Assembly (NCBI GenBank): GCA_030532305.1
Contig: JAUNLJ010000001.1
Coordinates: forward strand, 42,946 to 106,945
Source: Tissierellia bacterium
Lineage (GTDB): Bacteria > Bacillota > Clostridia > Tissierellales > Peptoniphilaceae
Direction: 5' to 3'
DNA: 64,000 nt
In this document: piece after piece, positions 50,460 through 52,490 of the stretch
Position numbering within the stretch: the stretch's first letter is position 1
How the letters are laid out: the number at the start of each line of letters is the position of its first letter
Position numbers and translations under genes: made by a program
Notes under the pieces: model-generated
The model's input: the letters and a program-made list of their open reading frames with translations, nothing else
What the model was told of the DNA's origin: nothing
Database searches by the model: none

Positions 50460-51221
50460 TTATTTTTGCCCTGGCAGTTTCCTACAAAAATCTTCTAGGC
50501 CCTTGACCTGGATGGCCTCCACCTGGCCCTTGTCTACCCGCTGCCTAAAGTCTGGGTCTAGGGGGACCTTTAACAGGTTGTCGATGGCAAACTTTTCTCC
50601 CTCTTCCCTAAGTTTAGAGGGGCCAAAAAGCTCTATGGCATCCAGGCAAGAGGGGCAGGTTAAATAGCTCATATTTTCCACCAGGCCCACAAGGGGAACC
50701 TGGACTTTTTTGGCCATGTTAATGGACTTTTCCACAATCATCCCCACCAGGTCCTGGGGACTAGAGACCATAATAATCCCGTCTAAAGGAATCCTTTGGT
50801 AGGTGGTTAGGGCCACATCCCCTGTTCCTGGGGGCATGTCAATAATCAGGTAGTCCAAGTCCCCCCAGGCCACCTCCTCATAAAACTGTTCTAGGGCCTG
50901 GTTAATGAGGGAAGACCGCCAAACTAGGGGCTGGGTAGGGTCCTCTAGGATCAAGTTGACACTCATGATCCTAATTCCCAGCCGGCTTTCTTCTGGGAGC
51001 ATATAGGTCCCGTCAGAATAGGCCTGGCTTCCCAGGCCAAAGGCCTTGGGAATAGAAGGGCCCGTAATATCGGCATCTAGGATCCCCACCTGGTGGCCCA
51101 TCCTTTGTAGCTGGCTGGCAATAAGAGAGGACAAGAAACTCTTGCCCACCCCTCCCTTGCCACTGGTGACAGCTAAAATATGCTTGATCTTGGACCGGTC
51201 ATTTTGCTTTAATTTTTCCAT
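50460..51221 (-). CDS. mrp: Mrp/NBP35-type Fe-S cluster carrier ATPase
   Basis: A 253-residue P-loop ATPase of the Mrp/ApbC group. The deviant Walker A is Gly-Lys-Gly-Gly-Val-Gly-Lys-Ser (21-28), and a Cys-Pro-Ser-Cys pair in Leu-Thr-Cys-Pro-Ser-Cys (near 192-195) would hold a bridging [4Fe-4S] cluster for delivery to apoproteins. The N-terminal MIP18-like domain of longer Mrp proteins is missing. It follows the DnaA-box cluster. A ParA-like role is less likely because of the CxxC pair. Confidence 0.9.
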   Translation of the reverse strand: MEKLKQNDRSKIKHILAVTSGKGGVGKSFLSSLIASQLQRMGHQVGILDADITGPSIPKAFGLGSQAYSDGTYMLPEESRLGIRIMSVNLILEDPTQPLVWRSSLINQALEQFYEEVAWGDLDYLIIDMPPGTGDVALTTYQRIPLDGIIMVSSPQDLVGMIVEKSINMAKKVQVPLVGLVENMSYLTCPSCLDAIELFGPSKLREEGEKFAIDNLLKVPLDPDFRQRVDKGQVEAIQVKGLEDFCRKLPGQK

Positions 51222-51353
51222 AATCTCCTCCCGGATTTTCTTAGCACACTAAAGGACGGACCCCTAGGGCCCTAGGGGAAAAGACCTGGTTTTGGCCAGG
51301 TCTTGGTCTTTCCCTTTTTGTGCACTTTCTTTATTTTTTAGTCTTTCTATTTT

Positions 51354-51487
51354 TTCTCCACAGGTCCACCTGTGGCTATCTTTCCACATTATCCACAGAC
51401 TTATCCCCGAACCTTTGGCATTATTTAGGGGTTTTCTTAAAATATCCACATTGTCCACAGGTTTCAGATTGGGTTTCTGTGGATAAG
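51354..51487. other. Cluster of DnaA-box-like 9-mers and an inverted repeat
   Basis: In about 135 bp: exact TTATCCACA at 51389-51397 (+) and 51479-51487 (-); one-mismatch copies at 51354-51362 (TTCTCCACA), 51442-51450 (ATATCCACA) and 51451-51459 (TTGTCCACA); TTATCCCC at 51401. CCACAGGT and ACCTGTGG form an inverted repeat at 51358-51375. AT-rich sequence lies just to the left (51310-51355). The stretch 51222-51488 holds no gene. It could be an origin-like or DnaA-titration/regulatory site; gene orientation does not switch here. Confidence 0.7.
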
Positions 51488-51488
51488 C

Positions 51489-52490
51489 CTATCCTTGTAA
51501 AGTCAAGTTGGGATTTGCGTAAAGGCCCGATTTGTTGCCATTCTGTAAATAGTGAAAGTATCCTGCACTAGCTATCATGGCCGCATTGTCTGTGCACAGG
51601 ATGGGGTCCGGGTAGAAAACCTGGACCCCCTTTTGTCCGGCGCGCTCTTCCATGGCCTTTCTCAGGGCAGAATTGGCAGAGACCCCCCCGGCTAAAACAA
51701 TCTTATCGTAAGCTAAATGGTCGTTTAGCCGGCAGGTTTTCTCCACAAGGACATCTACCACGGCATCTTGAAAGGACCGGGCCATATGGGCTGGATGGAC
51801 CTCTTGGCCCTTTTGTTCCAAATTGTGGGCCAGGTTGATCACGGCCGTCTTAAGACCAGAAAAACTAAAGTCATAGGCCTCCTCATCCAGCCAAATCCTG
51901 GGAAGGTCGTAGAGGGGCTGGCCCTTTTTGGCCAGCTCATCTATCACAGGCCCCCCGGGGTAGCCCAGGCCCAAATGCCTGGCCACCTTGTCAAAGGCCT
52001 CTCCGGCTGCATCGTCTATGGTCTTTCCAAAAAGTGTAAAGTCCACATAGTCCTTTACCTGGATTAAATAGGTGTGGCCTCCTGATACAATTAGGCCGGT
52101 AAAGGGGGGCTCTAGGTCAGGATGGCTAATATAGTTGGCGCAGATATGGCCCTTAATGTGGTTGACCCCCACAAAGGGCTTATTTAGGGCCAGAGCCAGG
52201 CTCCGTCCGGCTGTCAGCCCCACTAAAAGGGCCCCAATCAGGCCGGGACCCCGGGTAGCTGCCACCAAATCAATGTCTGAAAAACTGATGCCGGCCTTTT
52301 CCATGGCCATGTCCAAAACCGGGCTCACACTTTCCACATGCTTACGAGAGGCAATCTCTGGGACCACCCCTCCAAAACGTTTATGAATATCAATCTGGGA
52401 GCTTATCTCGTTGGCCAAGACCTCCCTTCCATCCCTTAGGATGGCTACAGCAGTTTCATCACAGGATGATTCAAAGGCTAGGGTGATCAT
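51489..52490 (-). CDS. tsaD: tRNA N6-adenosine threonylcarbamoyltransferase
   Basis: Catalytic subunit for t6A37 modification of ANN-decoding tRNAs, working with TsaB, TsaE and TsaC. The 333-residue ASKHA-fold protein has the metal-binding His111 and His115 in Val-Asn-His-Ile-Lys-Gly-His, and the N-terminal Phe-Glu-Ser-Ser-Cys-Asp-Glu-Thr. It overlaps rimI by 20 bp. The full t6A set except tsaC (sua5) lies in one run: tsaE, tsaB, rimI, tsaD. Confidence 0.95.
   Translation of the reverse strand: MITLAFESSCDETAVAILRDGREVLANEISSQIDIHKRFGGVVPEIASRKHVESVSPVLDMAMEKAGISFSDIDLVAATRGPGLIGALLVGLTAGRSLALALNKPFVGVNHIKGHICANYISHPDLEPPFTGLIVSGGHTYLIQVKDYVDFTLFGKTIDDAAGEAFDKVARHLGLGYPGGPVIDELAKKGQPLYDLPRIWLDEEAYDFSFSGLKTAVINLAHNLEQKGQEVHPAHMARSFQDAVVDVLVEKTCRLNDHLAYDKIVLAGGVSANSALRKAMEERAGQKGVQVFYPDPILCTDNAAMIASAGYFHYLQNGNKSGLYANPNLTLQG

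Follow-up and report, generated by a model that had tools for sequence, protein, structure and literature searches.

A DnaA-box array of fixed geometry behind tsaD in Bacillota: probably an ancient brake on chromosome replication that needs no promoter, and not an origin

The window is the whole stretch of DNA that was analyzed, 64,000 nucleotides from a Tissierellia bacterium. In it a cluster of DnaA boxes occupies the gap between tsaD, which we take to be the same gene as gcp (paper titles use the names in this way), and a gene for a P-loop ATPase; the latter owes the name mrp to an earlier note on this DNA, and the name fits the sequence, resting on a reading of it and not on a family search. 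The earlier note had listed two exact TTATCCACA boxes on opposite strands, three boxes with one mismatch and an inverted repeat, all of which were confirmed at their positions (Table 1), as was a second inverted repeat formed by TTATCCACAGA (51389-51399) and TCTGTGGATAA (51476-51486). Two weaker boxes absent from that list, CTTTCCACA and TTATCCCCG, complete a conserved array of five boxes in a single orientation (51380-51459), which starts 29 bp past tsaD and has start-to-start steps of 9-12-41-9 bp; the pattern elsewhere is usually 9-12-42-9. The surroundings of the array are AT-rich (GC 0.24 at 51329-51362). Between the array and mrp is a perfect 9-bp inverted repeat, AAGACCTGG/CCAGGTCTT (51281-51304), which on the tsaD strand could be a candidate weak terminator; if transcription ends there, the array would fall within the tsaD transcript. 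Boxes with at most one mismatch number 32 in the window, compared with 12.7 +/- 3.7 in 100 dinucleotide shuffles, and the densest 135 bp contains five of them, whereas none of 200 order-1 Markov simulations had more than two.

Table 1. Coordinates of the DnaA-box array and its surroundings in the window.
Feature	Position	Strand	Remarks
Box d', CTTTCCACA	51380..51388	+	Two mismatches to TTATCCACA; first box of the array
Box d, TTATCCACA	51389..51397	+	Exact; 9 bp after d'
Box c, TTATCCCCG	51401..51409	+	Two mismatches; 12 bp after d; aligns to box c of profile R1
Box b, ATATCCACA	51442..51450	+	One mismatch; step from c is 41 bp, against 42 bp in most relatives
Box a, TTGTCCACA	51451..51459	+	One mismatch; abuts box b directly
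Whole array by profile R1	51380..51463	+	48.0 bits, E 1.1e-13; one-base deletion relative to the usual spacing
Flanking box, TTCTCCACA	51354..51362	+	One mismatch
Inverted repeat CCACAGG..CCTGTGG	51358..51375	.	Beside the array
Flanking exact box	51478..51486	-	2 bp from the tsaD stop codon
tsaD (gcp)	51489..52490	-	ORF and TsaD search; array on its 3' side; conserved neighbor
mrp-like P-loop ATPase gene	50460..51221	-	ORF; neighbor in this genome only

The first indication that the boxes belong to tsaD and not to this genome alone came from loci chosen by their tsaD genes. Among 30 loci of the nearest relatives, boxes recur behind tsaD in ten, from genera g1, g7 and g2, and the other 20 are without them. 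Clusters with the same steps are found among 77 titled loci fetched by TsaD similarity, in Gottfriedia (presumably a member of the Bacillaceae)/Bacillus sp., a Tepidibacillus MAG, a Bacillales MAG, Clostridiaceae/Clostridiales MAGs and a Tissierellia MAG; the Gottfriedia boxes, at 107/116/158/170, are spaced 9-42-12. Averaged over the titled loci, of which 71 were usable, the 200 bp that follow tsaD contain 1.42 boxes per locus, a figure inflated by near-identical Gottfriedia loci, against 0.01-0.25 in the other bins. In these tsaD flanks, which were selected without reference to the pattern, steps of 9, 12, 21, 42 and 51 predominate.

A blind pattern of four boxes, 12, 42 and 9 bp apart from start to start, with up to three mismatches and no gene context, was then applied to 398 genomes spread over Bacillota. 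It matched 58 of them, once in each, whereas the same pattern read backwards matched none of the 398, and neither did a version with the long gap widened by 5 bp. All 58 loci were inspected and tsaD adjoins the array at 46, in every case with the array 3' of tsaD and the boxes on the opposite strand; the distance to the aligned end of tsaD is 3-256 bp at 44 of the 46 loci, 992 bp at L145 and 814 bp at L161. The column profile of these 46 loci shows that another box precedes the first by 9 bp (columns -10 to -2, corresponding to box d'), and therefore the full array has five boxes, spaced 9-12-42-9.

A profile built from the same 46 loci (R1), which uses sequence only and includes no member of the window's family, matches the window with the score given in Table 1, and the match begins at box d'. 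R1 matches 297 of the 398 genomes at E<=1e-4, a number that takes in weak matches resembling oriC and should not be read as a prevalence. The R1 matches listed (39 bits or more) include 80 genomes outside the 58, in 79 of which tsaD was located: 52 of the 79 have the match within 1.5 kb behind tsaD (47 of them within 240 bp, and 51 of the 52 on the opposite strand), and 27 do not, although in four of these it is 1.6-2.4 kb behind. From the pattern and the listed R1 matches together, the array is behind tsaD in at least 98 of the 398 sampled genomes, under 40 family labels. R1 reaches 34 bits or more in 15 of the 77 titled loci, ten of which form the closely similar Gottfriedia/Bacillus group, and at E<=1e-3 it matches none of the six genomes behind titled loci from outside Bacillota, compared with 18 of the 26 others. 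The short steps (9 and 12) are fixed to the base, while the long step is 41, 42 or 44, about four helical turns, 44 being commoner than 42 in the R1-match set.

Within the window's own family, R1 matches 29-322 bp behind tsaD in 15 of 120 genomes, from seven of 39 genera. Most genera of the family are without an array behind tsaD, indicating that the array is dispensable. Two family genera have an inverted array behind tsaD, with its boxes on the tsaD strand (G008:C18:51147-51230, locus L287, and G016:C46:30201-30262), and genus g15 has R1 matches of 41-44 bits away from tsaD (G066:C1:308247-308317, G014:C8:11995-12066 and G046:C5:110790-110861).

What lies on the far side of the array is not constant. 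By crude ORF calling, 92 loci yield 35 sequence clusters for the next ORF beyond it. Where three or more boxes are present (78 loci), this ORF runs in the same direction as tsaD at 48 loci and converges on it at 30. An ABC-F-like (ydiF-like) far neighbor makes up a cluster of 12 members that includes the Gottfriedia locus L079. By tblastn, mrp is present at one of 21 related loci, namely that of the window.

Arrays elsewhere than directly behind tsaD were collected as 52 loci, comprising 40 R1 loci (including second matches and the four at 1.6-2.4 kb) and 12 pattern loci. Their recurrent neighbors are comFC, an adjacent zinc-ribbon protein, an hpf-like gene and amino-acid-binding proteins, all named by reading the sequences and not by family search. 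The comFC/zinc-ribbon/hpf address is represented by L135, L142, L143, L144, L229, L232, L234, L236, L242, L252, L254, L257 and L259, among others, and genomes G392 and G480 have R1 matches at both the tsaD and the comFC/hpf addresses. These loci suggest that the array has a second address in the comFC/hpf region. The idea that the arrays away from tsaD mark other t6A genes (tsaC/ywlC) is unsupported, given how their neighbors cluster.

An origin of replication in an unusual place was one of three functions proposed in the earlier note, and the dense boxes in an AT-rich neighborhood would suit a second or relocated origin, but the location of dnaA, the GC skew and the absence of a DnaA-trio make this very improbable, and the proposal was rejected. 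In the window's own assembly of 34 contigs, dnaA-dnaN is on a different contig (C15), away from the array; boxes upstream of dnaA and in the dnaA-dnaN gap make this an origin-like region, and a DnaA-trio run, TAATAGTAGTAG, lies near dnaA-dnaN at L003:11002. This oriC shares DnaA boxes with the array, but it has the trio run and sits at dnaA, neither of which is true of the array, and its best R1 match is 22.8 bits. Another group of three exact boxes and one with one mismatch, about 11 kb from dnaA (L004 3389-3804, or G000:C15:23389-23804), is not of the array type (R1 12.7 bits). Across the window almost every 2-kb bin has a negative skew, and the sign does not change at 51.4 kb. The nearest complete relative (G001, a single 1,587,771-bp contig with dnaA at position 313) has its array at 1,489 kb, which is 99 kb (6.2%) from dnaA. 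Its skew, sampled in 20 stretches of 20 kb, changes sign at dnaA and again around 0.77 Mb, but not where the array lies: stretches up to about 740 kb are mostly positive (two of ten, at 80 and 160 kb, are slightly negative) and all are negative from 800 kb. The 20-kb stretch L279 of that genome (G001:C1:1120001-1140000), with a GC content of 0.33 compared with about 0.54 genome-wide and a skew of -0.186, is perhaps an acquired island. A DnaA-trio, sought as a run of three TA[AG], is absent from the window and from the 120 bp around each of the 46 arrays (1.8 expected), by a scan that is a partial test in that it finds the oriC of G006 and of the window's own genome and misses that of G001. The dip in GC around the arrays is mild (0.37-0.43).

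The earlier note had also proposed a DnaA-regulated promoter of mrp. The array is within the 267 bp upstream of mrp, and promoter-like hexamers (51448-51420 on the minus strand, 9 of 12 matches) overlap box b, so a local effect on mrp is conceivable, but promoter-like matches are weak evidence at four found against 0.8 expected. As a conserved role the promoter was rejected, because mrp does not adjoin the array at the other 20 related loci and the downstream gene varies in kind and direction; even for this genome we consider such regulation improbable. Alternatively, the array could be an element of the 3' end of the tsaE-tsaB-rimI-tsaD operon, either with bound DnaA acting as a roadblock or terminator, or with read-through transcription stripping DnaA off the array. 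The constant address behind tsaD, the placement of the boxes opposite the tsaD strand (46/46 and 51/52), the lack of anything resembling a terminator on the tsaD strand in the gap before mrp, and the regulation of datA by read-through transcription that is reported in the available part of PMC10950094 all speak for it. Nevertheless, not every array is beside tsaD (12 of the 58 pattern loci are elsewhere, and in 27 of 79 genomes the match is beyond 1.5 kb), many of the others being at the comFC/hpf address, and the orientation is reversed in G008 and G016; thus, we give this explanation little credence. Chance or composition, which has only the simplicity of a 9-mer motif in its favor, is hardly conceivable: it is refuted by the blind pattern with its controls, by the uniform orientation at 46 tsaD loci and by the strength of the R1 match, as well as by the simulations.

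There remains the third proposal of the earlier note, a DnaA-titration site, which was the best supported. The array is probably an old brake on chromosome replication that does not depend on a promoter. By analogy with B. subtilis, we favor, with some confidence, its identification as a DnaA-binding array outside oriC, the counterpart of the gcp/ydiF cluster, that would restrain initiation by cooperative assembly of ATP-DnaA. The lack of an array behind tsaD in most genera of the window's own family counts against this identification. In this organism, ATP-DnaA would be expected to fill the array cooperatively, starting from the abutting box pairs. Where an array behind tsaD could be placed on a near-complete chromosome (16 genomes, with 11 of the lengths rounded), its distance from dnaA is 6-29% of the chromosome, a range that comes from array-bearing genomes alone, and tsaD may generally lie close to the origin. 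If the site is likewise origin-proximal in this organism, the array would be duplicated soon after initiation, and the two copies would then draw DnaA away from oriC, lower the level of free DnaA and delay the next round.

A mere sink would not need fixed spacing, and the conservation of the geometry suggests a more ordered function than titration. The array could thus play a role like that of datA or DARS in E. coli: its fixed geometry would order a complex of ATP-DnaA that stimulates hydrolysis of ATP, in the manner of datA, or exchange of the nucleotide, in the manner of DARS. The base-exact short steps, the long step of about four helical turns, the loss of all matches when the gap is 5 bp wider, the strong ATP preference of gcp/ydiF in vitro (PMC4447404) and the dependence of datA and DARS on arrangement and position (PMC5295017, in the part available) are points in favor of such a remodeling site. 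On the other side, DnaA of B. subtilis is described in the Introduction of PMC4447404 as controlled mainly through proteins that alter its cooperative binding, not through nucleotide turnover, and we regard remodeling as a rather unlikely alternative. In its broadest and equally tentative form, it would mean that Bacillota keep behind tsaD (and in many lineages, as a second copy near comFC/hpf) a geometric, promoter-free element that orders ATP-DnaA and resets DnaA activity, a datA/DARS equivalent predating the split between Bacilli and Clostridia.

DnaA-box clusters outside oriC have usually been taken, outside E. coli, for a loose sink, and have been studied in one species. An array that is exact to the base and found at one address in 40 families indicates that both geometry and place are under selection. 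Its motif is a means to locate the element in any genome of Bacillota, and the question of sink versus remodeling can be tested by altering the spacing alone. To our knowledge, Bacillota have neither Hda nor SeqA, and the array offers a phylum-wide handle on the timing of initiation in their absence.

The closest known system is the gcp/ydiF downstream region of B. subtilis, which ranked fourth in DnaA binding in vitro and has ten sites; the accessible portions of PMC4447404 report high-affinity, cooperative binding with preference for the ATP form, a Kd of 0.15 uM for ATP-DnaA and 0.33 uM for the ADP form, and, at 55 nM, a 16-fold higher recovery of DNA with ATP-DnaA. According to the available text of PMC5295017 and PMC13220808, B. 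subtilis lacking all six clusters outside oriC initiates early, and one cluster restored at various places partly relieves this. The gcp/ydiF cluster is not among the eight gene sets given as directly regulated by DnaA in the available part of a review (PMC8203912). In the literature searched, of which parts were available, DnaA boxes, gcp and ydiF were found together in PMC4447404 only, and no paper was found that reports conservation of the cluster, although Okumura 2012 and Ishikawa 2007 may already discuss it. The array of the window has the same address as the B. subtilis cluster, directly 3' of tsaD (its R1 match is 29 bp from the aligned end of the gene), and like that cluster it consists of several DnaA boxes between genes, away from oriC and with no constant promoter. 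They differ in the far neighbor, which is ydiF (ABC-F) in B. subtilis and mrp in the window; the box matches of the window are weaker and its long step is 41 bp, and the two are likened by address, not by the B. subtilis sequence. Among the elements of E. coli, DARS1 and DARS2, which promote DnaA reactivation, are like the array short intergenic sets of boxes in a defined arrangement. The datA site is dependent on IHF and differs from the array in genomic address and in the arrangement of its boxes. Nevertheless, datA is likewise a cluster of boxes outside oriC, and it restrains initiation (PMC5295017, in the part available).
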